A stretch of DNA of 30,129 bases from Sistotremastrum niveocremeum HHB9708 (Eukaryota > Basidiomycota > Agaricomycetes > Sistotremastrales > Sistotremastraceae). The stretch lies in the NCBI GenBank assembly GCA_001630475.1, contig KV419459.1:60207-90335 (forward strand). Direction: 5' to 3'. Positions within the stretch are counted from its first letter, which is position 1, and every line of letters begins with the position of its first letter. This document shows positions 1 through 25,846 of the stretch, in pieces. The position numbers and the translations under genes were made by a program. Under the pieces are notes generated by a model. It saw only the letters and a list, made by a program, of their open reading frames with translations, was not told the origin of the DNA and searched no databases.

Positions 1-7
1 TGTTGAG

Positions 8-96
8 CTGGATGTCCGGTCAATAGGCAGAATAACCTCTGCATAATAATTATGTACTAACCTGGATGTCCGGTCAATAGGCAGAATAACCTCTGC
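8..96. repeat. Two direct repeats of 35 bp, period 54 bp, with internal dyad symmetry
   Basis: The same 35-bp unit (beginning CTGGATGTCCGG, ending CCTCTGC) occurs at 8-42 and 62-96. The second copy is followed by CTATCTCCGACATCCGG, so GGATGTC/GACATCC and AGGCAG/CTGCCT can pair as a stem. The stretch 1-248 directly abuts the point where the retroelement pol frame breaks off, so it probably belongs to another insertion or a rearranged end. I cannot assign it to a family. Confidence 0.7.
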
Positions 97-248
97 CTAT
101 CTCCGACATCCGGTATGCGCTTATATACTACATCGGATGATACTAAATACGGTAACCGCTATACAGCGATGCCACTAACTCGGTCCGATCTCCCAAAACT
201 CGCCGTATCTCCGTTATCTCCGTAACTCCGACTACAGCTCGTATTGGC

Positions 249-1380: not shown

Positions 1381-1570
1381 TAGTGTTTAAAAGTCCAGTT
1401 GCTATGACCGAAAAAGACTGGCAACTGGACCGATTTTCTGCAAAATACAACTGGACCAACAGTTGCAGTTCACTCCTTTTTTTCCAGTTGCAGTCGTAAG
1501 TTATATGATCTCTTGCATGCGTCAGGGACCGGTCAGACCGGTTGCGACCGGTTGCGACCGGGAATATTCG
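1381..1570. repeat. Left terminal inverted repeat and subterminal motif array
   Basis: The terminal repeat begins at 1381. Downstream lie clustered short motifs in both orientations: CCAGTTGC, GGCAACTGGACC, CAACTGGACC, ACAGTTGCAG, CCAGTTGCAG, then GACCGGTCAGACCGG and two tandem GTTGCGACCG units near 1530-1560. The right end and the 0.5-kb elements at 7.7-9.8 kb carry the same vocabulary. In hAT elements such arrays are typically transposase-binding sites. Confidence 0.75.
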
Positions 1571-2640
1571 GACTTACCGGAGCGCATCCCGACAGCACGA
1601 AAAGATTCTATTTATCACCTTGGGGGGGCTCGAACTACGAAGCTTTAAGTTAATACAAGTGAGCGATCCACTAGGTTATCGAGTAATGATTATTGTACAA
1701 GCAAATGGTCTTATAATCGCAGCATGACGAAACGTGGAAGAGACTCGTGCGTGAGGTGATTTGTCATCGCTACAACCTCGTCGCTATCATCGCCATCTTC
1801 TCGTATCCTCTCTAGCCAACCAACATCCCTCCACGTCGTCGAACTTTATGGGCAACATCGTACATTGGAGTGTCGTAGCTCTGATCAGCGCAGGGATATC
1901 AACGGCGAACGGTTTCGTGTACGTACCTTGGTCTATCGAAGTCGTCCACTTCCTGATCTATCGTCTCTAGCTAGGAATGCTGGCACTCGCCGTGGAATCA
2001 TTATGAAGAGGGAGTTGTGGCTGGGACATTACGACGAGACGGAGTCAGGCATGAAGAGAGGAAGAGGAGTGCATCACCGGTGACGACTGACGAGTGAGTA
2101 GCGCGTTCGCTCTATAGTATCCCTGTCTTTTCCCTATCCGTTCAAACCCGTTGAGCCATCCATTCGACATCCCAACGCTCCTGACGAACATCTATCCGAT
2201 ACGAAAGACCGCCATTTCTGTCAAGCACCTCGACGTCGACTGCTTGTATCCCCAACATTTTCGCTTCACTGCCCACGCGTCCGACTTATCGTACGATTTG
2301 CTTGCGACGCGTCACCTTCTGCTTTCAAGAATCCAGTCACTTTAGCATGCAATCTTCTTGTCTATCATGAGTCTTGTAGTCCTTCCGCTGCTGCTGCATA
2401 CTGATCATTTTTCAAAGGAAAAGTTTGATTCATTAAAGAGAGGTTGCTACGGAAGAGGGCAGTTGAACTAGCAGGGTCCGAGAAAACTAAGAAAAGAAAG
2501 CTAAAGATAGTCCGAGGATGAAATGAATAGAAAGAATTAGGCGAGAGAGTGTAATTATAGAATGAAAGAAGGGACGAGAGTCTGGTTATTGATAGATCAC
2601 GGGCACAAGGGGGCTGTGTTTAACAAACTACGAGATTAGG
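1571..2640. other. No recognisable gene
   Basis: Open frames of 60-70 codons occur on both strands, but none has a recognisable domain, coherent introns or a clear start context. I see no transfer RNA or further element terminus here. Confidence 0.5.
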
Positions 2641-2652
2641 CAACTCCGAAAT

Positions 2653-3242
2653 CTAAAGATTCAAGGCACGGAACGCGTTGTTAAGGGCTTCGGCCGATGC
2701 CCGAATTTCTGCACGAGTGCGAGCCCTGGCTAAGACCCTGCGAGGAGTGCCTGAACTAAGATCTATGACCTCGATATACGTGGCATGGGGATCCAGGAAC
2801 CTCAGGTACCTTTCGGCTGAGGCACGGCGGTGAGCGCGAAAGACCAAAGTGACGCGCTTAAACAACAGAAGTCAGCGGGATTTGAAGCCGAGAACGGAAC
2901 CGACATACCTGAAACTCGCAGAAGAACTCCCGACACATGGTCACGTAGCTGTGCCAACGCTCGGCAGAATCCAAAGTCATACGACGACCACGATTGAGCC
3001 TCCTATTCCTCCCTCTCACATAAACGCGAATCTAATGGCTGTCAACAAGAGCACATAGACGAGTAGATAGAAATACTTACGAGTCTAAGAACCCTCGTGA
3101 CCGAATAGCCACGGCGAAGATCAGGCATAACCTGTCGACGGTTCCTGTGCAACCATTCGTTGAGGGCCTCGGAATAATCCCGCTCGTATTGAGGGAGGGA
3201 TTGACGAAGAACTTGAGGGAAGTGGTGGAAGTTGAACGACAT
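2653..3242 (-). CDS. Unrecognised 162-aa protein, three exons, divergent from the hAT transposase
   Basis: Three exons join in frame: 3242-3081 (54 codons), 3031-2909 (41 codons), 2856-2653 (67 codons plus TAG). The introns are 49 nt (GTAAGT..TTAG) and 52 nt (GTATGT..TTAAG), typical of basidiomycetes. The protein begins MSFNFHHFPQVLRQ and is strongly basic, with Arg-rich stretches (RGRNRRLNRGRRM; RVLARARTRAEIR), one Trp-His-Ser-Tyr segment and a Cys-containing CREFFCEF segment. No membrane segment, signal peptide or known motif is visible. A TATAAATA sequence lies 68 bp upstream of the start on the coding strand. It is transcribed away from the transposase gene across a shared intergenic region, both inside the giant element, and it shows no frame damage although the metabolic genes nearby are decayed. 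It could be a second element-encoded protein, for example a DNA-binding accessory factor; that function is a guess from basicity and position. Confidence 0.65.
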
Positions 3243-3309
3243 GAGAGAGTGAGGAATGAAAGGAAAGACAGAGAGCGCGATGAGGGAGGAAAGGAGGAAG
3301 GTGGTTCAG

Positions 3310-3317
3310 TATTTATA
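3310..3317 (-). promoter_or_regulatory. TATA box for the 162-aa gene
   Basis: The minus strand reads TATAAATA, 68 bp upstream of the ATG at 3242. The spacing suits a short 5' leader. Confidence 0.5.
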
Positions 3318-3679
3318 TGTCTGGAATCCGGAGGCGAGCCACGAAAAAAAAGCCAAGGACGGCGAGAACAAAGTCGAACGATGCTTGAGGACCGGCGGCG
3401 CCGAAAATGCGATTCTTCTTGAAGTCTTCTTCGAGAGTTTGAAGGTCGAAAATTGAGATCGTCTTGAACGTCTGCTTCATCGATTTTCTTGATTTTGGGT
3501 TCATTCGAAAGCTCTCTTCAACGAGCTCATGGTATTGACATGAGGAATGCGGGAGATGCGATGTGGGATACTGTAGGAGGGAGAGAATTTCGCTGGTGAA
3601 CGGGCGAAGCAGGCTTTGCCGAGAGCTGTTTCATCGACAGCGTGTCTGGCTGCGTTTGCTAAGTAACGAAAAGAACCGA

Positions 3680-3687
3680 TATATAAA
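3680..3687 (+). promoter_or_regulatory. TATA box for the hAT transposase gene
   Basis: TATATAAA stands 190 bp upstream of the ATG at 3877 and is followed by a pyrimidine-rich leader (TTTTCCCTTTCCTCTTTCTT and similar), which is common at fungal transcription starts. With the box at 3310-3317 it makes 3243-3876 a divergent promoter region. Confidence 0.55.
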
Positions 3688-3876
3688 GCTCACCGTTTCA
3701 GCGACCTGTGGCCGGTCTCTTGCTTTTCCCTTTCCTCTTTCTTGTCTCTCGTTTATCCACTTTCCTTCACATTCGCTCCAACTTCCAATCTTTTCACCCC
3801 TTTTCCATTCCTTCAATTTCATCCCTTCATTCGTATAAGCTCCTCATCGTTCCTATCCTTTGGTTCATCTTTCACC

Positions 3877-6800
3877 ATGACTCGACAAAAGAAAGACCCA
3901 CCTGTGGCGACCGTTACTACTCGCGTTCGAACGCTCACCGAAAAGGCGAAAGCAGCTGCCGATGCTGGAAATGCGAAGAAGAAATCAGTTAAGAAAACGC
4001 AGGCAGTAGCAACAAAGAAGAAAGCTACCTCATCAAAAGTGGCTGCTCCCATCGCCAACGCTCCCTCCTCCCCTTCCTCCTCCCCTTCCTCCCCCCCTTC
4101 CTCCTCCCCTTCCTCCCCCCCTTCCTCCTCTCCTCCCGTCGGCGCCTCCCCCGCCTCTGGCTCTTCTGCTTCTTCCTCGTCCCTCAACTCGAACGATTCG
4201 CGGAGCGCTTGGGCGTCGAGTGACGATTCGGCCGATCACGAGGTCATTGATGTCGATGACGCAGATGACGACGATGTCGATGAGGATGATGTGGAAGACG
4301 GACAGGGGGATGATATCGTGAGTTCTATTGCAATGGATAAGACATGATGACTAATAATTATAATATTCAGCTCACCATGGATGCACTAGCTCATCTTCCG
4401 CCGAATAAACCGTCGAAGAAGGAATCTGTGCGAGACCTTCTGACGATGTTCTCGGATACCGTGAAGGTTCGCTTCACTGTCAAAGACGACGACGACGATA
4501 TAGTGGCCGTGCAAGTGTTGAAGGGTCGCTGGTGCTTGGTCTGTCGGTAAGTCAAGTTTATTTCTTCGATCAAAATTCTGTAACTCACTGTGCTTCACAG
4601 CGAAGATCCCAAATATGCTGGGAGCGCCTGTCGTGGTGCTTTCAAGCTCGGTGGGAACTCCTCCTGCAGACAACATATTCGCAGCCATTACACCGAGTAT
4701 CTGAGGAGATGTGCTGCCGAAGGTTGTAAGCCCCAGGAACATTGCATGCCAAGAGACATGCTACGAAGGAAGAGGATGCAGGAGGCGATAGCTGCTGGCA
4801 AGAAGAAGAAAATTACTGTTCAGGGTACCCTAGATACGGTCGTTAGCAGACGTGACTTACCAGGTCCGTTCAAGCCTAAGCACACCATCCACACCATCGC
4901 CCAGTACTTCGCCTGTAAAGACATCGTAAGCCCGTTCATCCTCCATGAGTTCACTTACTGATACATCACAGCCTCTTTCTCATGCAGAAGATGTCGCCTT
5001 CCGAAACATCTTGGTCTCCATGAGGCCGCAGACCGTCAGCTCCGAGCTCCCCTCCTCATACGACGTCAGCCAGTACCTCAATAATGCCTTCGTCAAACTC
5101 ATGGAATCTTTCAAAGAGGAATTCACTGTACGTCATGCTTTGATCGTTGTGCTTGTAGTGCCTGACTTATGCTTAGAGCGCACCCGGTTCCGTATCTTCG
5201 ACATCCGACCTATGGTCCGTGTCGACTACGAAGGAGTCAATCATGGGCATCACGGCACACTGGATCGATGTGTCAGAAGATGGGTGGATGTTGAAAGGCT
5301 CCGCCATCGCATTTAAAGGTGTAGCTGGGAACCACTCTGGCAGAAATCTGGCAAGATATTTTTGGGCCTGCGGGAAGCGAGTCGGGATCTTCGACGCCGA
5401 ACAGTGCAAGGTAACGTCTTCCTTTTGAATTTGACCTTCAACAATCGTTGAACAAAATCTTAGCTCTACGGTCTGACACTGGATAACACGTCAAACAATG
5501 ATACGCTCGCGAAGAATCTCTCCGAATTCATCTCTCGTCGCACGAACAAGACTTGGGACTATACCCAAAATCGTCTTCCGTAAGTGTCTCGTTCTCACTA
5601 TGGTCCAAACTCTTATCCCTTCAATGCAGGTGTCTCGCTCATGTTGTCAACCTAGCCACGGTCGATATCATGGGCTTTGTGACGCAGATAGGATTAGCAG
5701 AGAGTTCGACTTTAATATGGGAGTACAACCCTGCTGATCCTGAGAATCGCGTGCTCGGCGGACAGTTGGACGTGATCGCGTCGATTCGGACTCTGACGGT
5801 CAAGGTATGTCATCGACTTTCGTGTGCGTATCGTATCTAATACTCGTTGAAGATTCAATCATCCTGTCAACGAATTCAACATTTCCATGTCCTTCAAAAT
5901 GAGTCTGGGATTAAACCGGCTCTAAAAATTCCTCTTCATAGCAATATTCGCTGGGGCTCAGCTATACTAATGCTGATTCGTGCATGGAAGCTGCGAAAGG
6001 TACGTTTTTTGTTTTCAAAAGTAATGGACGCGATCTCATATCGTAACTCGAGGCTATCAATCATTTCTGTGCCACTGCTGATGCCCGATTCGGACCAATC
6101 ACTACCCTTCGACGCGACGGCAAAGTCAAGCATATCCCCTGGAAAGCGTTTAAGCTCACGGATGCGGATTGGGAACGGGTCGGGCAACTAGTCGAGATTC
6201 TAAAGGTGAGTTTTCTATTGTCTGTATTCTTTGTCTACGACTTATCTACGCTATCAGGACGCTCAACGCATCCAGCAAGTCTTCTCGTCCGACCAACTAC
6301 CGACTCTTTGGAGGGCGATTCCGGCCATCGAGCGTCTTCAGACTGCTTGGGAGAAGAAAGTCGAAGACCCAAAGTTCTCTCTCTACGCACCCGGTATCGT
6401 CAAGGCTCTCAACAAGATTGCAAAGTATTACTGCGACTTTGATAAACATCCTGTGTTTGTTCTCGCGATATGTAAGTTTTCATTTCCTGTTGTATTGCTA
6501 ATCTAACCAAATGCTTCTTTCAGTCCTTCACCCGTACTACAAGTTGAAGTACATTGCACAACAATGGGGTGGCGCAGAAGAACAGGCCGAAGAAATGGCG
6601 AGAGGGAACCCCGACGCGAAGAACTGGGTAGCGGAAGCCGAACGTATCATCAAAGAGGCCGTAAGTTTTCTGCTTTATCGTCTCAAACTACGTGACTAAC
6701 GTTCTTCAAAAGATGGAACGTTATTGGCAAGCCGCTCGCGCATCAAAGACGACTGCCGCTGGCGACTCCTCCCTCCCACCTTCATCACCGCCATCGACCT

Positions 6801-7368
6801 CCTCAACATCTGACGCGATGGATGTCGACTTGGACGCTTTGGACGACGACGACTACTACGACCATCAACGTCGACAGGAGATGTTAGATGCAGAGGATGG
6901 TGAAGACTGGGAGCTGGAATACGCGACGTATGGGAAAGACTTGGCCCGAGATGTTGAGAGGGATACGGATCTGGTGAAGTGGTGGTCGGTGCGTATTTAC
7001 TTTCTCTCTTTTATTCTCTTCCTCTGACAACCAACTCTATTCTACAGGAGAACACTACGCGATACCCAATCCTCTCTCGTATCGCTCTCGACGTGCTCCC
7101 TGTTCAGGCCTCGTCCGTTCCTTGCGAGCGTCTGTTCTCTGCGGCGAAACATATAGCGACCGACCAGCGTTCTCGTCTCGCCACAGATAAATTCGAACAT
7201 CTTCAGCTCTTGAAGTTCGCGTGGAAGGGGGATCTTGTTGACGTCGCCGAAGAGAATGCGTTGTATGACGAGGAAAGTCGTGCATCAGAGGAGTTATTTG
7301 AGGGATTAAATGCAATGGATGAGGAAGATAATCAGTGGGACGAAGAGGAGGATCAGATTGCTTCTTAA
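3877..7368 (+). CDS. hAT family transposase with BED-type zinc finger, intact, 13 exons
   Basis: Exons 3877-4317, 4371-4546, 4601-4925, 4972-5127, 5177-5410, 5464-5579, 5630-5804, 5853-5999, 6053-6205, 6258-6471, 6524-6660, 6713-6988 and 7048-7368 join without a stop into 956 aa. Order: Lys-rich N-terminus (possible nuclear signal), a Ser/Pro run, an acidic tract, then a BED-like finger (C202, C205, H231, H235). The RNase-H-like catalytic core follows, with candidate acids D377 (TSDLWS), D451 (LTLDNTSNND, followed by CLAHVVNL) and E877 (SSVPCERLFS). The C-terminal hAT dimerisation region runs from YPILSRIAL to LLKFAWK, and the tail is acidic. The start ATG has a TCACC context and a TATA box upstream; earlier in-frame ATGs lie in the pyrimidine-rich leader. 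A complete catalytic triad and 12 clean introns suggest function or recent selection. It probably mobilises the surrounding element and the related 0.5-kb elements. Domestication cannot be excluded. Confidence 0.92.
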
Positions 7369-7679
7369 TATACCCCAACTAGTCATACTAGAGGTGCCAC
7401 CCTGACGGGCAATACGAGTTGTAGGAGCTCATGATAATGATTCACAACTCACAAAGCAGCTACATCAATGAACATAATTATTTGGTTATCCATGTATCCA
7501 GGGACCAATATCCACAGAGCTTTAACATACTGGTATTTACTACACAAAATTCCAGTACCAAGCCAGCCTTTCAAGTTGCTGCCTGAGCTTGAGCTTGAAC
7601 TCAAACTTTATCCTTGCTTTGCATCCATCTGATCTTAAGTTCTGACTCTAATTCCTTTGTACAGTCAAGTTCAGTCAGA
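7369..7679. other. Transposase 3' flank, no gene
   Basis: No coding signal is seen. A CTTGAGCTTGAACTC-type repetitive patch lies near 7585. Polyadenylation signals were not identified with confidence. Confidence 0.5.
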
Positions 7680-7687
7680 TCTAATAT

Positions 7688-8203
7688 TAGAGTTCGAAGG
7701 TCCAGTCCACGTGACTGCAGGCAACCGAAGGTCGTGGTGGGGTCGTGACTGGACTGCAGTTGCTGGTCATCTGGATTTCTGAAAATCAGGCAACTGGCAA
7801 CTGCAGTCATGACCAGTCGCAACCATGGTCGTGACTGAGGACCCTTAAGGGTCCTAGGAAAGGGCATACCCAGGGTATTTTGGGTGTCAAGTGGGTATTT
7901 ATGGCCATATATTCATCAAATATGGTACAATATAGTGTTCCTATGTGTTACTAGACACTATATGACCACTAATAAGGCCTAAAAGTAATATATAATTGAT
8001 TAAAATAATGATTTAGACCAGTTGTGACCTCAGGTCGTGGCCATGACTGGTCAGGCAACTGGTCTTTTTGGCAACTGGTTGCTGGACCGCAACTGCAGTC
8101 CTGTTGCCAGTTGCCCAAAATTTTGGCAGGCAACCGGACCGGCAGTTGCCAGTCATGGGCAAAAACGGAAAAAGTCCAGTTGTGACCGGACTTTAAAACC
8201 CTA
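7688..8203 (+). mobile_element. Non-autonomous hAT element A (516 bp) of the giant element's family
   Basis: The ends are TAGAGTTCGAAGGTCC and (reverse complement) TAGGGTTTTAAAGTCC. A perfect 8-bp duplication TCTAATAT lies at 7680-7687 and 8204-8211. The left end is nearly the same as the right end of the giant element. The interior has dense subterminal motifs (GCAACTGG, CAACCGGACCGGCAGTTGCC), an AT-rich middle and the palindrome GGACCCTTAAGGGTCC near 7842-7857. It has no coding capacity. Confidence 0.88.
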
Positions 8204-8464
8204 TCTAATATTCTATCAGAGCTTGATGGGATCATTGCACTTGATGTCATTACTGGAATTGATGTACTCCTTTCACCGTCAATTCATTCCACTCCGGCAG
8301 AGCAAGAGGTTGATAACAGTCATACATCTCCTTGCGCTGCCCCATCCTCTTTGTGTGATCTTCAGGAATGATAGACAGAATCTCTGCGATGGGCTTTCCA
8401 GCTTCAGTGACGAGGTCGTGGATTTCAGAGTGCTCAAGCCATTTGTTGAGTAAGGTGAACTGTT

Positions 8465-8973
8465 TAGTGTTCTGAGGTCCAGTCACGACTGGACTTTTGA
8501 CCCCCGGAGGGTGCAACTGGCAACTGCCGGTCCGGTTGCCATCCAAAATTTTGCGTGACTGGCAACTGCGACTGCGGTTGCGGTCCGGCGACCGGTCACG
8601 GATGCGACCAGTTGCGCAACCAGTCACGGCCACTTTTTCCAGTCACAACTGGTCTTTTATCAATATTTTAATCATTATTATATTATATATGCTGTATATA
8701 CACCTCATATGATGTGGTACATGCATATAGAGACCAATATATACCAGATATGTCACTATAAACACCCATTTGGGACCCAAAATACCCTCTGGGTACCCTG
8801 GTTGGGGACCCTTAAGGGTCCTCGGTTGCGACCACGGTCACGACCGGTCATGACTGCAGTTGCCGGTTGCCTGATTTTCCAAGAACCCAGGCAACCGGCA
8901 ACTGCGGTCCGGTCATGGTCCGGTCGCGACTGCCGGTTGCCACCGGTCACGGCAACTGGACCTTGGAACACTA
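8465..8973 (-). mobile_element. Non-autonomous hAT element B (509 bp)
   Basis: Termini are TAGTGTTCTGAGGTCC and (reverse complement) TAGTGTTCCAAGGTCC, with perfect 8-bp duplications GAACTGTT at 8457-8464 and 8974-8981. It is in the opposite orientation to elements A and C and carries GGACCCTTAAGGGTCC at about 8806. It is inserted in a phosphoketolase exon: removing it rejoins KNDEQ to FTLLNKWLE in frame. Its termini and length match element C. Confidence 0.9.
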
Positions 8974-9290
8974 GAACTGTTCATCGTTCTTTTTTGAGGC
9001 AGTCAAAGGGACTTGATGAGATGCGAAGGACCCCTTGATGAACTTTCCATCAAGTTCTTTAGGCCCTTTCCAGGCCTGTATACGCACAAATGTCAGAATC
9101 AATCAAATGAAAGTACGGAGATGACTGCCCTTTGGTGTCCGTAGAATAAACACAGGCCATCAAGGCTTCACGTTTGGAATTCCCTCCCTCACAGCTTTCT
9201 GGGTCTTCCTAATCTTGCTAACCGCCCACTCAATACTCGCGACCACATCAAGATCAATATTTTCCACATCCTTGATGAATGGAACTTGAT

Positions 9291-9799
9291 TAGTGTTCCA
9301 AGGTCCAGTTGCCGTGACCGGTGGCAACCGGCAGTCGCGACCGGACCATGACCGGACCGCAGTTGCCGGTTGCCCAGGTTCTTGGAAAATCAGGCAACCG
9401 GCAACTGCAGTCATGACTGGTCATGACCGTGGTCGCGACCAAGGACCCTTAAGGGTCCCCAACCAGGGTACCTGGAGGGTATTTTGGGTCTCAAATGGGT
9501 GTTTGGAGTGACATGTACAGTATATATTGGTGTCTATAGGCATCTACCACATCATATGAGGTGTATATACAGCATATATAATATAATAATGATTAAAATA
9601 TTGACATAAGACCAGTTGTGACTGGAAAAAGTGCCCGTGACTGGTTGCGCAACTGGTCGCAGCCGTGACCGGTCGCCGGACCGCAACCGCAGTCGCAGTT
9701 GCCAGTCACACCAAATTTTGGACGGCAACCGGACCGCCAGTTGCCAGTCGCACCCTCCGGGGGTCAAAAGTCCAGTCGTGACTGGACCTCAGAACACTA
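9291..9799 (+). mobile_element. Non-autonomous hAT element C (509 bp)
   Basis: Termini are TAGTGTTCCAAGGTCC and (reverse complement) TAGTGTTCTGAGGTCC, with perfect 8-bp duplications AACTTGAT at 9283-9290 and 9800-9807. It has the same length and end sequences as element B, inverted, so B and C derive from one recent source. It splits the phosphoketolase exon between GYGYQV and PFIKDVENI; excision restores the frame. The palindrome GGACCCTTAAGGGTCC is present near 9444. Confidence 0.9.
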
Positions 9800-9862
9800 A
9801 ACTTGATATCCATATCCCCTAGGAGTTTGTGAGTAAATGAACAAGGTAGACACCGCCTCCTA

Positions 9863-9960
9863 CTTCAGAAAAAATTAGACCTACTAATTGTACTTTTGAG
9901 TACTTTTTAGTACTCCAGAGCGCTCAAAAGTACAATTAGTAGGTCTAATTTTTTCTGAAG
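9863..9960. mobile_element. 98-bp foldback element G within a phosphoketolase intron
   Basis: It is an almost perfect palindrome: arms of about 38 nt (CTTCAGAAAAAATTAGACC.. and its complement) around a short loop containing GAGCGCTC. TA flanks both sides. It lies in an intron of copy 1, between a GTGAGA donor and a CTCCTAG acceptor. A second copy of equal length is at 10122-10219. Confidence 0.8.
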
Positions 9961-10121
9961 TATCTCACGAGAATGATGCAACAAGCTCTTTGTCATCCAT
10001 ACGTAGTATATCGTCCTTTTGGAGATCTTGAATCCGTTGACGTGGACAATTGGGAGCACTGTGCCGGATTCTGCAGGACCGAGGTACTTGTATCCATGCC
10101 ACGCGCTTCAAAAAGGTCCGA

Positions 10122-10219
10122 CTTCAGAAAAAATTAGACCTCCTATTTCAACTCTTGAGCGCTCCAGAGTACTCAAAAGTACTCCAGAGTCAAAATAGGA
10201 GGTCTAATTTTTTCTGAAG
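10122..10219. mobile_element. 98-bp foldback element H within another phosphoketolase intron
   Basis: It shares the terminal arm CTTCAGAAAAAATTAGACCT and the exact length of element G; the inner arm and loop diverge (CCAGAGTACTC). It lies in the intron between GPTAA and AWHGY of copy 1. No convincing target duplication is seen (GA left, AC right). Confidence 0.8.
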
Positions 10220-10760
10220 ACTCAGAGTTGATCTCAATACCAAAGAGAAGATACACACGCAGCAGTGGGACCGGATTCAGCTTCTTCATCTCCAACGACA
10301 CATGCCACGATCAAATCAGGATTATCAAAAGCCGCACCAAAGCTGACGATAAGTGCATATCCCAACTCTCCACCTTCAGGAATCACTCCTGGAGTCTCTG
10401 CGTTGATGTGACTGTTGCAAACGGTAAGGACTCAAAACAGACGAGATGGAAAGTTGGAAAGCCACCTGGAACGGAGAATCCCAAGATGAGATTTTTCCAA
10501 TCCTTTCTTGTCGAGGGAATATTTGGGAAGGAAGTGTGCGAGGGAGCTTTCAAGCCAGAGACAGGGGAGAATAGCGGGAGCACCATGGCCTGGATTTTGG
10601 AATCAGATAAAATGCCTGACCCTTGGCTTGAGAGCGACGTAGACGAAATTCCGAACCTGGACCAGTGACAAAAATCATATTCAAATCATGCCTCCTAATC
10701 GCCAAGTTCAAATGTGCATATACGAGTATCAGTCCCGGACAAGTTCCCCAATGTCCTATA

Positions 10761-11042
10761 TAAGGCCTCCAACGAATATATACTTGCCTTACCTGGGTAC
10801 CTGCATGCAGGTACCTGCCTGTTTTTTTCAGCCAAAATCCCATACTTGTACTTGGCAAGTACAGGTACTTACTTGCCTATACTTGCCTAAATAACCCCTA
10901 TCTACTAGTAAAAATAGCAGGCAGGTACCTGCCTAAATGTCCAGCCAATAATCTCATACCTGCCTACGGTGTATTAGGCAGGTACCCTTGGCAAGTATAC
11001 TTGCGGATATCCTTAAACGGGCTATATTCGTTGGAAGCCTTA
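10761..11042. mobile_element. hAT-like element E (282 bp, TAAGGCYTCC family)
   Basis: Terminal inverted repeats are TAAGGCCTCCAACGAATAT and (reverse complement) TAAGGCTTCCAACGAATAT. The interior is packed with GCAGGTACCTGCC-type palindromic units and CTTGGCAAGTA motifs. It has no matching 8-bp duplication (GTCCTATA left, GTGAGCGT right), and phosphoketolase homology ends exactly here, so a deletion or recombination probably removed one flank. The related element F keeps its duplication. Confidence 0.75.
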
Positions 11043-11222
11043 GTGAGCGTCGAGGACAAGCCTTTGGAGTCTTACTCTTCATTAGACATTAGGAAGGAGG
11101 AAAGTAGTACATCAGGCGTGACATCACTATGATTTCAAGTCTGTATTTACAGCAGCTACAATTACAAAGTGTACAAAAGTGTACACTTGCGTTCATTACA
11201 CTTTTCTGATGAATTTTCCGGC

Positions 11223-12679: not shown

Positions 12680-12808
12680 TGTCGATTGTCTTAATTGCCA
12701 GTATAATTTGAAACGCGGGATAGAGCAGTCACGGACGGACTGTAGAGGGTGTAGTTAGAATGAGGTGCGATGATGACTGTGGGCTTAAGTAGCCTCTGGC
12801 TGCAGAAG

Positions 12809-12814
12809 TATATA
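12809..12814 (-). promoter_or_regulatory. TATA box of the acetate kinase gene
   Basis: TATATA lies about 130 bp upstream of the acetate kinase ATG in the gap between that gene and the 3' end of phosphoketolase copy 2. It is the only TATA-like element in the gap. Confidence 0.4.
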
Positions 12815-13129
12815 GAGAGAGATTTCAAGATGGGAGTCGAGAGCGAGCCCTTGCACCGGGGTTTGATAGCTCCAAGTGTCGTATATGCAGACCCGAGTCC
12901 ATATTGTAAATAGTTCTCGAAGTGGTCGAGAGCAAGAACGGTGCCGAGCGGAGAAGCGAGATCGGTTCGATTTCGGTTACTTCAGGCACGCCGATGGCGC
13001 CAAAGATGAATTTTGAGATTACAAGAATTATACACGAGTGTCCAGATTTATCTAAACCTCTATGGAGATGTAGGAGATGTTCTAGATATACAAATTCGAA
13101 TCGTCCGAAGAAAATTTTGATGAAGAAAT

Positions 13130-16100
13130 TTAATGGAAGACGGGAGTGACGAAAGTCTCCGGCGGATCTGCAAGACAAGTAAGTATTCGTTCGGGTTCAA
13201 ATCAAGAAATATACATACCAATTCTGTTGGCGCGAGCGTATTCGGCGGCTTTCTGGTGCTCGTGCTTGAGGCCAGCAATGAGCTGATCTGCCACGACTTG
13301 CACTTTAGGATTTTTAGTCGCACCGCCACGAACGGCAGCGATAGCAATGTCATATCTTGACACGTTGTTACAAAGCAACATCTGCGCATATCATCAGCGA
13401 TCCATCGACAAAATCGCCACAGAAGAAAACACATTGAAAGGAGTAGTCGTAGTACCCTCCTCCTTATATCCTTCAATCATGATGTGCTCGCTCTGCTTTC
13501 TGCCGAAGAGCAGACCGCGGAGCTCGATAGGATAGCCGTGATAGTTGAAGTGAATGGGCGCGTCTTTAATAAAGACCGCGTCGAAGGCGTCTTCGTCGAG
13601 TGTGTGAGGATGTGACCCGCTTCCGCTGAGGATCATGGGATCGGTGACATTCACGACACGAACGCGTAGTTCAGGGACAAGTTTGCGGAGGAGAGCGGCG
13701 GCGGCGATAAGGCTTCCAACGAGTATCGCCCAAATGGGTATACCCGCAGGTATACCTGCGCAGGTACCTGCCAAAATTTTTGCAGGTAGGTATGACATTG
13801 GCCTTTGAACTTTTTGGCAGGTACCTGCCCCCAACAAAGTGATTCAATTTCACCATTTAACCACAAAACAAGACACTTTACATGGGTATACCTGCATGGG
13901 TACCTGTACCTGGCAAGTACGAGTATGGGATTTTGCCTAAAAAAAACAGGCAGGTACCTGCCCGCAGGTACCTGAGTACCACAGGTACATATTCGTTGGA
14001 GGCCTTAGGCGGCGATGACTGCGAAAGTGACTTCGACACCAATGCCAACCAAGACACTGCACATGTCGCTATGAGCGATGATCATCAAAATCGACTAAAA
14101 TAGGCTTACACGTCGGGCTTCACACCACCGTCAGTGCTGGCGAACTTCCAGACTGAAGCACCGGCGATACAGTGTTTATCGGCTTCTTCGGCGGACAACC
14201 ATACAGGTGTAGGCTGCTTTGAGCCGACCATCAGATTGACATAGTGCTTCGCACGAAGACAGTGGACAACGGTGCTGAGGAAGCAGTTGACGTCGGGAGG
14301 AAGATAGACCCGGGCGATGGAGGCTTTGAGTGCGAGGATTGAACCGATGATGGAGGGGTTCTGATGACTGAAGCCGTTGTCTGGAATACGATCATGAAGA
14401 GTTCGTTCCTGAACATGCAGAGAATGCACATACGTTCTTGTCTGGTCCAGGTGGAAGTTTCGACATAGTTGATAGAGGAGATATCTCGTCTCCAGTCCGT
14501 CTCACGTGCCTGATACAAAATTAAGTCGAAGTCCAAGAGATAAATGGAGGAACTCACCATCTTAACAAACTTGGCGTACTGAGCGCACATAGTGCCGACG
14601 ATGCCTAAGAAAGCCTCATATGAAGGCAGCAGGCCCGTTCGTCCAGTGAGCGTATATCCTTGAAGCATGCCTTGGCAGGTATGTTCGCTCAGGATTTCGA
14701 CGACACGACCACCTTTATTCCTTGAAGCGACGTCCCATTGGAAGTTACGGCCGGAATTGGGAGCTTCGAGGACAGCGAAGAGTTTGTCGGAAACGAGTTC
14801 GTTGGGAGAGAATATTCTGAAGGTTTTGGGGTTGCTGCAGATACTGTCAGTGAACTGGTATTCACCAACGCTCAAACGAGTAGACATATCTCGCGAAGAC
14901 CTTAAGCAGATATCCACCAACAACTTCCATACAACTCTCCTGACTGCCCTTCTTGACCTCGGAATCAGACCAAAGGGGCAATTCAAGAGGAGCATGAGCG
15001 TCGTAAGTCTCCTTTCTCATTCCCATCCGCTTGTTCTCGTCCCAAGGAATGACATGCTGAATCTCATCGATGTGCTCGCCGTGCTTCTGCAAGAGACTGT
15101 GAATCTCGTATGACTCAAGCCACTCTTTGAGCATCGAGAATTCGTGTTTGTCGGTCTTGACGTTGGTCAAGGGAACTTGATGGGAGGCGAAGGATCCTTC
15201 GATGAGCTTTCCGTTGAGTTCTTTGGATCCGCACCATCCCTACGCATTTTGGATCAGAATCTGATTGGGGACGAAGACGGAATGAAGAACGTACCCTTGG
15301 GAGTGCGGAGGATGATCACTGGCCATCGAGGCTTGACGATAGGCTTGTGAGTGCGGGCGGCCTTCTGAATGCGCTTAATCTTGTGGATGGCTCATTCAAT
15401 GGAAGCAGCGAGATCTTGATCGATGTTCTCGAGATCTTCAACGATACGGACTTGGTATCCGTAAGCACTGAGAAGAAAGATAAGCGTGTGCGGGTGAGCT
15501 TCCAAGGATGGAGACCTACGAGAAAAGTGAAATGATTTCTTTGTCGTCCATACAACCGAAGATGGTTCCTTCGGAAATCTTGAAACCGTTGACGTGCAAG
15601 ATAGGGAGGACAGCGCCAGATTCTGCAGGATCGAGATATTTGTGTTCGTGCCACGCACTAAATATCCATTAGATCGGTTTCGAAGCGATAAGGAAGAAGG
15701 CATACGTCGCAGTAGGACCAATCTCGACTTCATCATCACCTATGAGACAAGTGACGATGAGGTCGGGCTTGTCCATGACAGTGCCAAAACTGACAGACAG
15801 AATATATCCAAGTTCTCTACCTTCGTAGATCGATCCTGGAGTCTCGAGGTTCATGTGGTTTGGGAACCCTCCACGAGAGGAGAAGCCGGGGATCAGATGT
15901 CACGGCTGTATTTGGGGATAAAATCTGTGAAGCAGTTTTCGAGCCAGATATCCGTGATCAAGAAGACATGCGAGTCCGGTGGAGTCGAGACAATAACTAG
16001 AATGATAATATAGTGAGATGCCGGATTCTTGGTGAGATGTAAAAGCCTCAAGGGTCATGTCAGAGATCGCCGATCGATTGAGGGAGGCTGAATTAACACA

Positions 16101-16170
16101 CCTGGGATGTTGTCGTGTCCCAAAACCATCAGAGAAGAACAAAGGCATTCTCTCATCGTTAACCCTCTTC
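13130..16170 (-). pseudogene. Phosphoketolase pseudogene, copy 2 (nearly full span)
   Basis: On the minus strand, exons separated by 50-nt introns cover most of the enzyme: [199 protein letters not shown] and NNVSRYDIAIAAVRGGA, ending ETFVTPVFH then TAA at 13130-13132. Damage: TGA replaces Trp at 15392-15394; a stop and frameshift lie near 15893 before GGFPNH; the GDG cofactor motif reads GDD; the GHWGTCPG segment is nearly unreadable (GHDNIPG near 16120); and a 300-bp transposon interrupts an exon at 13708. Its lesions differ from those of copy 1, so decay was at least partly independent. Confidence 0.88.
13708..14007. mobile_element. hAT-like element F (300 bp, TAAGGCYTCC family) in a phosphoketolase exon
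   Basis: Termini are TAAGGCTTCCAACGAGTAT and (reverse complement) TAAGGCCTCCAACGAATAT. A perfect 8-bp duplication GGCGGCGA lies at 13700-13707 and 14008-14015. The ends fit YARNG, so this is a second hAT-like family. Repeated GCAGGTACCTGCC units fill the interior. Without the element the reading VTFAVIAA joins AALLRKLV in frame. Confidence 0.87.
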
Positions 16171-18121
16171 ACCTCACTCCCTCTTCGTCCATCATCTTGG
16201 AGTCTTCAAAAATCATTTTACAAACTGGGTGATCTGAGACAGCAGTTGCGAGAATGTGATAGACGACGCGATGAACAAGGACCCACTGGATGCAACGTTC
16301 TATAATCAACATGATTGGAACACAACCGGCACCTCGACCCTTTCACGGTTCGTCAAGAACGATGTCGGAAGAAACGAGCTAGGAACTCGGATGCCGCAGT
16401 CAAAACCGGTTGATCGAAACAAGGTTAGTTGTTTACCTCTATCCACGACTACAGTAAGCTTTATTTGACTAAGACCAGGACAACGGGGTTGGCAAGCCAT
16501 GGTGTGTAGCAGGTCTTGTGCGAGACGATGAAGAAGCGAGTGGACGTGACGATGGCAGCAAGTACGGAATTAGGAGCCTCGGAAGACTTTGCTATCGGTC
16601 ATTTGGGAGGCGGACTACGATGTTGCCACCCCGGCCTCGGACTGGTACTGAAAAGAGAGAAGGGAAGGATTCATGGACCAAAGACAACGGCGTGATATCT
16701 AAGAATGGCCGGCATCATGGCGAGAATGATGTCATCAGTAGAATTTTCATCGGGACATAAGCAGAAGTCGAAATTTGATTACAAGAGATCATAATTGTGA
16801 ACGTGTGACGATTGTACAAGATACCCTCCTGCTACTCAACCTCATACAGTAAAATACACGAAAGAGTATCTCTCAAAAAAGAGATGTACGAGGGTATCAC
16901 ATCTGACGTTCAAGATATTTGTTGTTGGCCGGCATGATTAAGAAAGAAGAGATGTGCTCCATCCAGCGCTCGATGCGGATGCTTGATACGAGGACACGAC
17001 TGGGGAATAAGTCGGAGGAGTGGGCTGAGGAAGGGACTCGAATGGGCTGCTAGCAGATGTCGATGAAAGAGTAGCGTGATGGGCGAGACTTCAAGGAACA
17101 GAAAGTCAAGCGTAGGAAGTCAGTCAACGGTCAATGAGAGAGTATAGACAACGCACCTTTTGACTGCTTGGCGAATCTCAACTTCGACGCACTCTATCAC
17201 CCTGCTCAATCTCGACCTCCTTATCAGTACGTTTCTGGGCAATCTCTCCTTGATCTCGTGTAGAAAATCCCAAAGAACTGAACGACATGACAGGGACGGG
17301 GGAAGCAACCGTGACGCTCGAATAGGCACATTTTATCCCCTTACCACCACTGTCTTTCTTCGGCTCTTTGCATTAATCACAAATACTTTGGGGCGTCATA
17401 CGGCAATCCAGATATGCCTGATCTCCTTCGTAGTCGGCCGTACGCCAAGCAGAGGAACGGTCAGCATATGAACTTTGCGCGGCGGTGAGTTACCAACATT
17501 ATCTTGATAGCACTGACCGCGAAGCGACATGATCTTGGCAAACAATACGGACTTTGAGTCGATTGTGTGTTCTGAAGCCCAAGAACAAGACGTCCGGAAT
17601 TAAGAATGAAGGCAGTGACGCTTCGAGAATGACATTGATGTAGCTGAAGAAGGGCAAGATTGCACGCACGAAATGGACTGCGGCACGATGTTGAGGACAT
17701 CAATGAACAGTAGATGATGAAAGAAGGTAGATGACGCACGTCTCTTCTCCCTTGCACCCTGATATCCTGCTCACGTTGATTCTTGACTTCCCCATCCACT
17801 CCTTTCTGCGCATCGTCACTGTTGAGATCGTGTGGAAAGAGCTGAGAAGAGTCTGTATGGCACGGAATGATTAGCAAAAAGCATTGACTTGCTGCCATAG
17901 CAAGTACTGACCGGTATTGACTTGCTGGCACTGACTGCAATGTGTCTTACTCTGTGATGGTGACCGATTAGATACAAAGGCCATTGCAATGATAGCCAGC
18001 CTTAAACTCTTGCTTAAACTTGAGTTTGTCACCAGCAGATATCATTGACAAAGCAGAAACTGAGAGCGCTCTTCGCTCGATAAGAAGTGGGAGACCATGA
18101 ACGTTGGACGATAAGCCAAGT

Positions 18122-18165
18122 GAGTTGACGAAGGGCCGTACAGCTCGCCATTTCGGATTCAGTCG
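18122..18165 (+). repeat. Short dispersed repeat, unit 1 of about 45 bp
   Basis: It starts GAGTTGACGAAGGG and contains GCCATTTCGGA; it aligns along its length to 20801-20846. On the minus strand both could encode a similar peptide (PKWRAVRPF here, PKWLPVQPF there), so it may be a relic of a repeated gene segment or simply non-coding. Confidence 0.5.
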
Positions 18166-20800
18166 AAAATCCACGCTAGTTTTGCAGACCGACTCGACGT
18201 GATGGCAATGGAAGACAGCGAGACTGAAACAGAGACTTTGATGCAGTACAGCAGAATGAACGTGATCACGTTGAATATAGGCGCGCGTGCCGTGACATAC
18301 AACGTGCCGGTGGGACTTGGTTCAACTCAGTGTCTTTGACTTCGCGGACCGTCACTCAATCACAATTTTGAAGATTGCAGCAAGATATATGACATTTCAA
18401 AAGACTCGGACGGACATCAGGGTCCATGCTTAACACTACACGGGCCAAACAAGAATGTGCAATATCGAGGCGAAACAAGACAACACAACGTTTACAACTT
18501 AGCTAGAGGTAGTGAAATCTTTGATCGTCTCGAGTCTTGAATGCATCGAAATAATGGTCGAGATTCGACTTGGGCATGAATGAACCGAATGAAAGCAGAA
18601 TATTGCAAGGGACGTCGGACGTGGAGATGGAAATGACGGGGGACTGAGGAGTATCGAGGGTGAAAATAGATATTAGGCCAATACGATAACACATCAAAAA
18701 GTAGTTATGCTCTCGTAGAAGGGACACACGCACCTGATTCCAAATTCATCGATCAGAACGCAAAGACCCGAATATTCTCAATTCAAACCCTGCTGCATGC
18801 TCTAACACGTACTTATCGACAAACGTGTAGCCCGAGACGCTCGCCACATTTCTCTGCCATCCCATCGAACGCTCGATTTGGTGCATCAAATTTGCAATAG
18901 GCGTAATCGGTGGATGCAACACAAAAGCGATGATGGGAGCGATGAGGACGAACATCGAGGTGGCAGTCTTAGGAGTACTTAATGGACGATGATCTGAGTC
19001 GTTTCACAGTGACGACACACTGAGGCCTTCATTGCTTTCCATACTGTCACTTCGGTTCGCCAAGCGTTCTGCTATGCATCCCATCCGACAGCTGTATCAG
19101 ACTTGCCAAAGGCGATCAAGGTAGGAGTTCGTCAGTAAATGAAATGAATGGCCTATATTGACGAGTACTCACTAACGCGATCTTGAGCACAGAATTTGGG
19201 CATCGACTGGGCGTGATGAATTTGATACAGGAGAAAAAAGTGTAAAAAGAGAGATCTGACAAGAAGGGGCGATCCATGATTATTAGCACGAGCTCAAAGA
19301 CTGTAAGTTATGTACTCACTGAGAATCCCATCATTACTTGCCACCCTCGATACGGCCATGAACCCAGTGAATCGCACTCTTCGCAAAGGGTTTTGAACCC
19401 TGTTCGAGTCGTTTACAAGAGAATCAAAAGACAGATTGTGAGAGACAATCCTGAAGATGCTCGTGCCAGCAATGACGGCGGGGAAGATGGGAGACTATGG
19501 CGGGGAGCACATTGACTGCATGGAAGGAATAGGAAATTGTGGAAAGAGACGGGAATTGACAGATTTCCTGCGAACTGAAGCAATGAAGAGGTATTGTGGA
19601 TGTTGACAAGTACGGGAGCAATGAAGAGGACGTTGGCAAGGAAAGGTAGGCAATGTTGTGGACGACAGTGAGTCAGTCACGTGTCAGCATTGGTTACAGA
19701 GCACTTGTGGCACGCGGCAAGACTTCAGGATGACGATGAGTCAAGCAGATGACTTGCAGAAGATTTGACTGACCAATTTCTATCGTGAACGCGAGTCGAT
19801 TGTGCCGATTCGTGCATCGTCAGCGTCTTTTGATTTTTGAGGATGTGTACATGGCCGGGGTGAAAGGGCATGCAGACAATGGGAATAGCCCTTACGGTGC
19901 GGAGGTCAATAAGCCCGCGTTTGCGATGAATTGGATCCGGATTTTGGTGTTTTGCATTGAGAGAAGTCCATTCGGCATCATCTTTGTCTGATGATGGGTC
20001 TACTGCGCCAAGTGGAAGTGTTACTTGTTCTTCATCCGAATTATCCCCATTCCATTTTCCTTCCTTTGCGTCATCTTCGACTTTAGGATATTTGACTGAC
20101 GATGTCAGGATTTGTGTCGATCTCGTGAGCAGGGGCGAGGATCCAAGTCAGGAATGGCTTGGATACATCACGATGTCGTCAAGAGGATGTCTAGGTGCGA
20201 GTTATATTAGGGCGTCATTCATCATAAATCGTATAGATGCAACGCACCTTGTATCCAACTCATGCTGGCTCTCGACTTTGGCATCACATCCGACCCCATC
20301 CAAGTGTTCCCTTTTGATCTTGGGTCAAGGATTCACGAGAAACTGGATAACGTGAAGGCATTAGTGAGTCATTACCAACGTGTTTTGCATTGCGAGGACT
20401 CACAGATCTGTTCTTGGAAGCGCTAGTTTTGGCCGACATTTTATGTGAGGGGCCGAGCGGGGGTCTGCTATGGTGATATTGCAGTCTTGATGGCGATTGC
20501 TGGGACAAGAGATGATCGCCAGTGAATATAAAGAAGAAGACAAGAAGAGCAGAAGCGGATATGCACGGATCGACTGGTGTTCATGAGAATGTGGGAGGCG
20601 ATGAGAGGTTCTTGATGGCAGACTCTGAGATCAATGAGAGGGAGATGGCGATGACGCTCAGTATGGTGGCTTGATCTTGGCTTGGAATCAAGGCCTGGAG
20701 GTTATCAAAATTCATAAGAAGTCAAGAAAAGCGTATGGAAAAAGAAATGATTGCGCTCACTGAGATGTGGAAGCGACGATGCACGCTGAGGTGAAGCAGG

Positions 20801-20846
20801 GAGTTGCCGAAATGGCTGTACGGGCAGCCATTTCGGAATTCGCCGA
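20801..20846 (+). repeat. Short dispersed repeat, unit 2, containing a perfect 12-bp hairpin
   Basis: It aligns to 18122-18165. CCGAAATGGCTG at 20807-20818 and its exact complement at 20825-20836 form a 12-bp stem with loop TACGGG. Unit 1 keeps the right arm but not a perfect stem. Confidence 0.55.
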
Positions 20847-21028
20847 CAGACGACCAACAGGCAGAAAATCAGACTTCTAGGGAATTTGTCACGGCGAAAG
20901 TGGAATGAGCGGCAACGGGATAATGATAGGACCCTGTAGATTAAATTTGATGAATTTAACTTGATGTTTGAGCCCGCAATCACTGTCACATACGGGCGGG
21001 CGGGGTTTCAATCTAACCCTACCTAACC

Positions 21029-21453
21029 CAACCTTGGGCCTCAAAATCAGCGATCACACAGTTAAACGGTTTCTGGGGCAAAGAAAATGTGCGGGACGGG
21101 CCTGACCTCATGTTATACCTTACATCAGCTCGTATAATTAGTTATAAGAATTTACATCAAGTTTTGAGTCCGCTATCGCTGTCAAACATGAATTTTGGAG
21201 GCTCGAAACAGCTGGCGCGGAGTTTTAAATCGGATTTCGGGTAAGGCCAAAAATGCAGTATATGCAGGCTCAAACAACGAGGACGCATGTAAAATCAATC
21301 GGAAAGGTGCCATTGTGGAGATATTCAAAATACGCATGTACGGTACAAATTTTAATTTAAAATATAATAAATTGAGCTCGCAATCGGTGTCAAGGATGCA
21401 GGTCGCTCTCGCACGAGAAGGACGATTTTCGTATTTCATACTACAACTCGTAA
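21029..21453 (+). repeat. Dispersed repeat R1, inverted relative of 29700-30129
   Basis: About 425 bp align with the reverse complement of 29700-30129, from CAACCTT..CTCAAAATCA through GACGCATGTAAAATC to CATACTACAACTCGTAAA. Inside, the motif TTGAGYCCGCWATCRCTGTCA recurs near 21160 and, diverged, near 21375, with another copy just upstream near 20965. No coding frame is shared. It lies inside the giant element; R2 lies outside. Confidence 0.85.
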
Positions 21454-22440
21454 ATACTCTATAGTCGACTAATTCTTCTCTAAACTATACTAATTCCTCG
21501 TAATCGATTTCTTTGCGATACCAATGTAGCGTGCGGCGTTAACGGACTTCAATCTCTAGTAGACAGTCCCAATCGGTACATGCCGTATAACACAGCTTGC
21601 CACGTCTCCTTCCCTCAAGGACGAAGTCATGGAGATGTCAAACGATGTTTCTTTGTCCTTTCTCAAGCCGCCCCGCCGTCATTACCATTATACATGGCTG
21701 CATAACTATCAGGTGTGTGTCTCACTGACTGAATCTTAGCACGGTGCTCAGATATAGCATGGCAGCATCTTGATTCCGAAATCGACTTCACATCGTCCCT
21801 CGCCATTCCACCTCTCAGCTCGCGTCGTGAGCATCGTTAGCATCCCTATTTCTCATCCTCATGGCTCGATCTCTAACCGCGGCATCCAGGTATGAAATCG
21901 ATGTACAATCTTGGGTCGTTACGCGGCGTTGTGCCTGTAATGCTGTGGGTGTGAATCTATCGGTAAGCCCTCATCATACCTATTGGACTTCACCAGGACA
22001 CTCAATCGTTATATTAGCACTCCATTCAACGCCTGTACTCACGTACAGTTGGGTTTCGTTCAGTACGGTATCGGCACGAATGAGAGTTTGGCGATTCACA
22101 GAATAGAGAAGCACGAGAGAAGAATACTTGACGGTCAATGAAAGGTGCGGATATTGAAGTTTCATGCTATATCGTAACCCTTACTCAATATTTGTACCAG
22201 GTCTTCCACGGTGATCCTCTCCCTTTCCTTATTCCACGTTCCGATTCTCTTCACAGTCGTTCACCTTCCGATTCATCGATACCTCGCTCGTCACGATTAT
22301 GGCGGTGTATTCTTGGGAGGGCTATCAGGCAAGATTCTATCATATATTCCCTTTCAAGTCTATTGCTGACTTCGTAGCATCACAGAGCAGATGTAGGACC
22401 AAGGTGCAATGTCCAAATGCTGTCATATAAAACTTATAGA
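21454..22440. other. No recognisable gene
   Basis: Frames of up to about 80 codons (21861-22106, 22138-22377) lack domains and clear introns. No transposon termini are seen. Confidence 0.5.
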
Positions 22441-22464
22441 GAAGTTTATTAATAAATATTAATG

Positions 22465-22719
22465 ATGGACCGGTCATGACTGGTTGCAGGACTGGTTGCA
22501 GGACCGGTCATGACTGGTCACAACTGGTTGTAAGTCTTGCGACTGGTCGCCTAGTGAACCAGTTGCTTCAGTCAGACTGGACCGAGGACTGCAGTTACAA
22601 CTGAAGACCACAGTTGCAGTTGCAAATTGCCTAAATTTAGGCAACTGGCAACTGCAAAAAATCGCCGGTTGCGCCTGCGGCGCGCCAAAGTCCAGTCCTA
22701 ACCGGACTTTCGAACTCTA
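22465..22719. repeat. Right subterminal motif array and terminal inverted repeat
   Basis: Repeated GACCGGTCATGACTGGT and ACTGGTTGCAGGAC units are followed by CAGTTGCAGTTGC and GGCAACTGGCAACTGC. A perfect 18-bp palindrome TTGCCTAAATTTAGGCAA centres near 22634, and the terminal repeat ends CGAACTCTA at 22719. The motifs match the left end and elements A-C. Confidence 0.8.
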
Positions 22720-22727
22720 TAGCTCGC
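22720..22727. repeat. Right target-site duplication (TAGCTCGC) of the giant hAT element
   Basis: It is identical to 1373-1380 and lies inside gypsy coding sequence directly after the right terminus. Confidence 0.9.
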
Positions 22728-25800: not shown

Positions 25801-25846
25801 CGAAAAAGGAAAAGAAATTTATTATCGGCTACCGAGAGACTCTACA

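Follow-up and report, generated by a model that had tools for sequence, protein, structure and literature searches.

A 21-kb hAT-bounded insertion with broken metabolic genes in a gypsy element of Sistotremastrum niveocremeum

At one locus of the basidiomycete Sistotremastrum niveocremeum HHB9708, two matched hAT transposon ends lie 21.3 kb apart inside a gypsy retroelement, with a transposase gene and the remains of three metabolic genes between them. Did all of this travel as one transposon, or was a smaller element filled in after it had landed? The window analyzed here is a stretch of 30,129 bases (GenBank assembly GCA_001630475.1, contig KV419459.1, positions 60,207 to 90,335, forward strand), which we compared with the organism's own assembly of 34.7 Mb in 111 contigs; numbers preceded by C denote contigs of that assembly. 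The window forms the final 30,129 bases of scaffold C66, and its right edge is the scaffold end. It contains no N, and an 8,298-base run of N stops exactly at its start. We think it probable, with room for doubt, that a hAT element with its own open transposase was enlarged by the uptake of passenger DNA and was then cut and pasted into the gypsy element.

Ends, target site and transposase

The features on which the delimitation of the element rests are as follows.

1381-22719 (21,339 bp): hAT element between matched hAT ends, flanked by a perfect 8-bp duplication, TAGCTCGC
1373-1380: target site duplication (TSD) TAGCTCGC, left copy
22720-22727: TSD TAGCTCGC, right copy
1381-1402, plus strand: left terminus, TAGTGTTTAAAAGTCCAGTTGC
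22381-22719, plus strand: right terminus (reverse complement of TAGAGTTCGAAAGTCCGGT) with its subterminal motif cluster
3877-7368, plus strand: hAT transposase gene, 13 exons, 956 amino acids, open
253-1380, minus strand: pol part of the gypsy element, left of the insertion
22720-24589, minus strand: gag part of the gypsy element, right of the insertion
25086-25848, minus strand: gypsy long terminal repeat (LTR), 763/763 bases identical to C66:47829-48591

hAT elements end in short terminal inverted repeats (TIRs) that begin YARNG. The two ends here start with TAGTG and TAGAG, fitting that pattern, and share 16 of their first 20 bases (hand count). A cluster of AACTGG-type subterminal motifs spans the first ~250 bp at the left end, and hAT subterminal motifs become dense once more at the right end. 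The first-pass annotation of this sequence had reported perfect 8-bp duplications next to inverted termini, and this is what we found: TAGCTCGC occurs exactly twice on the plus strand of the window, immediately outside TAGTGTTTAAAAGTCCAGT on the left and the reverse complement of TAGAGTTCGAAAGTCCGGT on the right. Scanning the window with TAGNGTTNNAARGTCCRGT at up to three mismatches gave eight ends, and all eight are paired by perfect 8-bp duplications. No end is left over, because three nested miniature inverted-repeat transposable elements (MITEs) of ~510 bp and the outermost pair, 1381-22719, account for all of them. With 4 x 4 end pairs in the window, a match over all 8 bases would arise somewhere by chance with a probability of ~2e-4.

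The site can also be read from the interrupted gypsy element. If the flanks (~400 nt) are joined with one copy of the target, a single frame stays open for 268 codons across the junction, and the joined sequence runs uninterrupted along a gypsy relative on C62 (575/745 identical, one target copy), so that the rejoining of the gag-pol frame noted earlier holds. Taken separately, the left flank (253-1379) matches the C62 copy at 76.9% and the first 350 bp of the right flank match it at 74.6%. The two ends thus entered the gypsy element as a pair, duplicating TAGCTCGC.

The 956-residue hAT transposase likewise withstood closer inspection. A GT-AG splice model with introns shorter than 75 nt yields exactly 956 amino acids, with 12 introns of 46-59 nt and no stop; a model allowing introns up to 129 nt gave 807 amino acids and was discarded since it swallowed exons. 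The protein contains the hAT dimerisation domain PF05699 (E 3.6e-17, 62.4 bits against a cut-off of 21.4) and matches the Hermes transposase in the dimerisation region (E 9.6e-11), while PF14372 reaches 15.5 bits, under its cut-off of 27. At residues 376, 450, 484 and 876 it has SDLW, LDNTSNND, CLAHVVNL and CERLFSA, which we take to be hAT-like motifs.

Two relatives in the genome are flanked by TSDs: C9:16437-23802 (7,366 bp, TSD AACGGCGC) and C13:655644-660663 (5,020 bp, TSD ACTACGCT). The element in the window is three to four times the size of these best-delimited relatives. Over the matched stretches its transposase is 50-76% identical to that on C39 and 38-69% identical to that on C9; weaker or partial matches lie on C46, C92, C18, C17, C20, C90, C25 and C22. 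The closest counterparts of both outer ends lie on C39, matching at 89% over 53 bp for the left end and at 84% over 80 bp for the right, and on this similarity the ends look like one subfamily. The stretch upstream of the transposase gene, 1500-3880, has no other DNA match in the organism's own genome. When viral contigs were searched for the transposase, 6 pattern matches were obtained and none was confirmed.

The first-pass annotation also suggested looking for paired termini 10-40 kb apart with 8-bp duplications. Genome-wide there are 678 end-motif matches at up to two mismatches, compared with 106 for a reversed control, and many of the MITE copies that we scored are 95-97% alike to those in the window. 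Five other long (+,-) pairs from among the 100 matches listed of these 678, on C5, C6, C10, C12 and C14, are 2-22 kb apart, and 0/5 have matching 8-mers. We rejected these pairs as further giant elements, as they lack a TSD and at least one of the ends is a MITE end (C5:14396-14904).

The captured metabolic block and its age

The element owes its size to an extra ~13 kb between the transposase gene and the right end. This part, with the insertions in and beside it, is composed of the following.

7688-8203: nested hAT MITE left of the cargo, TSD TCTAATAT (7680-7687 and 8204-8211)
8272-15948, minus strand: captured block A, collinear with C34:22844-29013 and ~84-88% identical to it
8272-10760, minus strand: phosphoketolase-2 (xfp2) fragment, 3' part missing at 8271/8272, with MITEs, one stop and one frameshift
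8465-8973, plus strand: nested hAT MITE, TSD GAACTGTT
9291-9799, minus strand: nested hAT MITE of the same family as 8465-8973, inverted, TSD AACTTGAT
9861-9962: palindromic small repeat
10122-10219: palindromic small repeat of the same family as 9861-9962
10761-11042: MITE of a second family (TAAGGC.. ends), no TSD
11315-12679, minus strand: acetate kinase copy, with one 35-bp frameshifting deletion and 0 stops in the 390 codons compared
13215-15948, minus strand: phosphoketolase-1 (xfp1) fragment, 5' end missing at 15948/15949, left border approximate; one stop, one 16-bp frameshifting deletion and one MITE
13708-14007: MITE, TSD GGCGGCGA, matching other copies in the genome at up to 100%
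15949-21457: block B, partly repeats shared with C46, C109 and C12
20193-21457, plus strand: repeat R, present in many copies that share a fixed 3' end and have ragged 5' ends

The metabolic gene relics of the first-pass annotation are acetate kinase and phosphoketolase genes on the minus strand. Their order (phosphoketolase 2 fragment, acetate kinase, phosphoketolase 1 fragment) and orientation are those of a resident cluster at C34:21412-29488, in which two phosphoketolase genes flank acetate kinase, all on one strand. We found no acetate kinase or phosphoketolase genes elsewhere in the genome besides C34 and the cargo. The cargo fragments carry introns, and both borders of block A fall inside phosphoketolase genes, the block starting in the second and stopping in the first, with no duplication seen at either border. 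Collinearity with C34 is broken by three MITEs, two small palindromes and one further, fourth MITE at 10761-11042, which replaces ~298 bp of C34 sequence at the 5' end of xfp2. The MITE at 13708-14007 belongs to another family than the three nested hAT MITEs.

Subtracting 8272-21457 (13,186 bp) and the left MITE with its extra TSD copy (524 bp) from 21,339 bp leaves a backbone of ~7.6 kb (by hand), near the 7,366 bp of the relative on C9; we infer that 7369-8271 and 21458-22719 belong to the hAT.

The divergence of the cargo from C34 bears on where it came from. Over 1,334 codons the synonymous divergence (dS) is 0.41, the nonsynonymous divergence (dN) 0.041 and their ratio (omega) 0.10; by gene, omega is 0.104 for acetate kinase, 0.079 for phosphoketolase-1 and 0.159 for phosphoketolase-2. 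By our own reasoning, drift since copying from C34 is expected to give an omega of ~0.5 or more. Given an omega of 0.10 instead, we conclude that the cluster ancestral to the cargo was functional for most of the period after its split from that of C34. Judged from these substitutions, the element does not carry a copy of C34 that died long ago; its cargo comes from a diverged, long-functional locus, perhaps a foreign one.

Damage to the cargo was counted on exon pieces from conserved peptide stretches; an automatic splice model had placed 6 stops in the two phosphoketolases, which we rejected because its introns were wrong. The damage is light: the 1,334 codons hold 2 stops along with 4 indels that shift the frame, one of these at the edge of a MITE, besides the MITE insertions and the cut ends. 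As the cargo genes are broken, they are at present passengers without function.

The age of the target can be compared with this damage. There is no stop in 996 gypsy codons (620 in gag and 376 in pol), counted up to a second insertion in pol, and together with the identical LTRs this would suggest a young target. The second LTR, C66:47829-48591, lies beyond the 8,298-base run of N, and the outer flanks of the pair have no matching 5-bp duplication. For these two reasons we dropped dating from LTR identity alone, keeping it only as a bound and as a sign of a young gypsy family. At this upper-bound age 0.35 stops would be expected in the cargo, compared with the 2 observed (P 0.05), and the 6 disabling events in 1,334 cargo codons compare with 0 in the 996 gypsy codons (P 0.035). 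The MITE at 7688-8203 has private changes at 5/516 positions relative to 12 copies, where ~1 would be expected (by hand). The excess of stops and these private changes lean towards a cargo that was aboard before the jump into gypsy, which is likely but not proven. For the MITE at 9291-9799 the count is 9/509, inflated since its 18 comparison copies were chosen as matches to 8465-8973.

One transposon, or a transposon filled in place?

We propose that the element began as a member of a small local hAT family, with TSD-flanked members of 5.0 and 7.4 kb, and that passenger DNA, gained to the right of the transposase gene and inside the right end, would have brought it to 21.3 kb. The uptake may have occurred when a break in the element was repaired by template copying or switching (the Pack-TIR or transduplication route), the template being a long-functional cluster that was by then diverged from its resident counterpart. 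The enlarged element would then have been cut and pasted into gypsy by its own transposase, which presumably recognizes the TAGNGTT..AA.GTCC ends and the subterminal motifs.

Several observations weigh against this account. Movement of the whole 21 kb as one piece is not strictly shown, because the filling of a gap can also produce a single-copy capture within a TIR element that stays where it is (PMC8277862); a search of the organism's own genome found no second copy of the element, and thus no second insertion showing movement of the unit. On C39, ends like those of the window stand 9,492 bp apart (C39:35294-44785) around a related transposase, and the flanks are unequal (CAACCGAC and GCTCTTGC, no TSD); this pair is perhaps a chimera or a decayed duplication. 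The age argument that decay may have begun before the jump is weak: one of the six disabling events is a 4-base remainder at a MITE edge, without which P is ~0.06 (by hand), and the MITE at 8465-8973, inside the cargo, has only 2/509 private changes relative to 18 copies. The membership of the two LTRs in one element is not proven, and their identity could also come from short-read collapse. Finally, pol is interrupted a second time near window position 252: resemblance to the C62 copy ceases there, as does the open frame, so that the gypsy copy is not undamaged.

The alternative to which we give most weight, as possible but clearly less probable than cut-and-paste of the enlarged element, is filling in place: a hAT of 7-8 kb landed in gypsy and later broke, and repair copied in the cluster and neighboring repeats, so that the 21-kb unit never moved. 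It would account for the single copy, the truncated gene ends and the absence of a visible duplication at the cargo borders, and according to PMC8277862 most single-copy Pack-TIRs of animals arise in this way, with hAT the commonest host superfamily (208/370). Stops and MITE changes slightly above what the gypsy age bound allows speak against it, as does the lack of a near source: the only other cluster found, on C34, differs at a dS of 0.41, so that repair would have had to copy from a second locus that is now missing. A composite origin, in which two neighboring hATs contributed one end each, left and right, and the pair moved the host DNA between them, we regard as improbable. Such macrotransposons have a precedent in maize Ac, with a 28-kb example that excised (PMC9910405), and the genome is full of suitable ends (335 + 343 compared with 52 + 54 in the reversed control). 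However, the six other ends in the window belong to TSD-bearing MITEs and no spare inner ends appear at up to three mismatches (a limit that may overlook ends in worse decay), the two outermost ends are like those on C39, and the backbone length fits a single element.

Least probable is that a second, unrecognized mobile element, for example a non-autonomous Helitron with captured genes, landed in the hAT and brought the cargo with it. Truncated, intron-bearing gene fragments and the repeats within block B would be consistent with such an event. Against it, Pfam scans found no Rep/helicase or other transposase domain in the frames covered (minus strand 1381-3876 and 9803-22622, plus strand 1381-7400 and 15900-22620), the dispersed matches share no outer border with the cargo, and repeat R ends in ACTCGTAA, unlike the Helitron-type end. 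A different question is whether the hAT brought a working acetate kinase/phosphoketolase cluster from another species, which was broken only recently. The reasons for considering this are the dS of 0.41, the omega of 0.10, the recent breakage, the 2.4 kb left of the transposase without a DNA match and the lack of a close copy of the transposase; we hold it as a speculative reading of low probability.

Known systems and neighboring sequence

The first-pass annotation described the locus as a giant cargo-carrying hAT. The description fits in that a single 21.3-kb hAT-bounded unit with gene relics sits in gypsy, but its novelty was overstated: both size and cargo have hAT precedents, and the element is not a new class, as gene-carrying hATs are already known (ToxhAT, the histone-H3 hAT and Ac macrotransposons). 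ToxhAT of fungal wheat pathogens, the fungal system closest to this one, is ~14 kb long, with a hAT transposase, cargo genes and nested elements; its TIRs are 74 bp and no TSD is recorded in any isolate studied (PMC6737239). Its movement was reportedly facilitated by the Starship Sanctuary (PMC6737239; PMC12506042). Both it and our element are fungal hAT-transposase elements enlarged by host-type genes and nested elements, whereas in the 21-kb element the 8-bp TSD is clean, a related site is continuous and the cargo is a broken metabolic cluster. The histone-H3 hAT of Pseudocercospora fijiensis (9.5-9.9 kb at full length, 20-bp TIR, 8-bp TSD) is present in hundreds of copies, with one small gene, and illustrates transduplication (PMC6710886). 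It resembles our element as a fungal hAT with an 8-bp TSD, short TIRs and host gene uptake; ours differs in being single copy and in carrying a three-gene block with introns and intergenic DNA.

The 28-kb Ac macrotransposon of maize left a modified 8-bp TSD on excision and used Ac termini of a composite insertion (PMC9910405). There, too, hAT ends with an 8-bp TSD enclose tens of kilobases of host DNA, but the 21-kb element has one backbone, an open transposase and no spare ends at the mismatch limit given above. Pack-TYPE elements are non-autonomous (PMC8903248), and a hAT Pack-TIR example carries a load of 291 bp (PMC8277862). Like them, our element holds host gene fragments between hAT ends, with both phosphoketolase genes cut at the cargo borders; unlike them, it has an open transposase of 956 amino acids and a far larger load.

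Starships are classified by their tyrosine recombinase and reach ~700 kb (PMC12134995). The earlier comparison with them stands in concept only, as a fungal element with genes and its own transposition enzyme. Here the enzyme is a hAT transposase, the ends are short and the TSD is 8 bp; no tyrosine recombinase was found in the scanned frames, and the element is 21 kb long, single copy and loaded with broken cargo. A 2019 review of giant transposons does not use the word hAT in its main text (PMC6431247). Among the top-ranked open-access matches of our literature search, we found no hAT with phosphoketolase or acetate kinase cargo, no giant basidiomycete hAT, and no 21-kb single-backbone hAT combining an open transposase, a clean TSD with a continuous relative, and a multi-gene metabolic block.

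The interest of this locus lies in one hAT backbone whose transposase is open and whose clean target duplication brackets 21 kb, a multi-gene metabolic block included. Should comparison with other fungi reveal this cargo in a second species or at a different site, the carriers of gene clusters between fungi would come to include a common cut-and-paste superfamily. Were the cluster foreign, Starship gene transfer would have a counterpart of DDE type, driven by a hAT. What most deserves to be followed is the constrained divergence of the cargo; omega between cargo and resident copies offers a simple test to separate old captures from recent, possibly foreign ones.

The remaining observations concern the surroundings. 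The two phosphoketolase paralogues on C34 are ~70% identical in DNA. The genome contains a large family of hAT MITEs of ~509-518 bp with the end type of the 21-kb element, and the MITE at 10761-11042, without a duplication, looks as if its insertion was accompanied by a deletion. Block B (5.5 kb) has no Pfam domain in six frames. Repeat R, with a 3' end of ..CATACTACAACTCGTAA, recurs at window 29703-30129, and copies sit at contig ends on C17, C57, C100, C12 and C66; it may be subtelomeric, or may simply break assemblies. A retroelement origin was not supported: the minus strand of the C46 stretch has no reverse transcriptase domain.

Beyond the pol interruption at ~252, a point past which the C62 relative continues, window 1-252 is unrelated to gypsy. 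It contains a 38-bp repeat at 8-45 and 62-99 (two copies 54 bp apart, 97% alike) and adjoins the 8,298 N (C66:51909-60206), a run whose far side is touched by the left end of a MITE at C66:51778. A gene for a DUF6535 protein, a type that points to mushroom-type fungi and, like the intron-rich genes, fits a fungal genome, adjoins the gypsy LTR at window 26802-28625, with C66:43696-44836 also noted, and window 26633-27785 has a 74% similar copy on the opposite side of the gypsy element.

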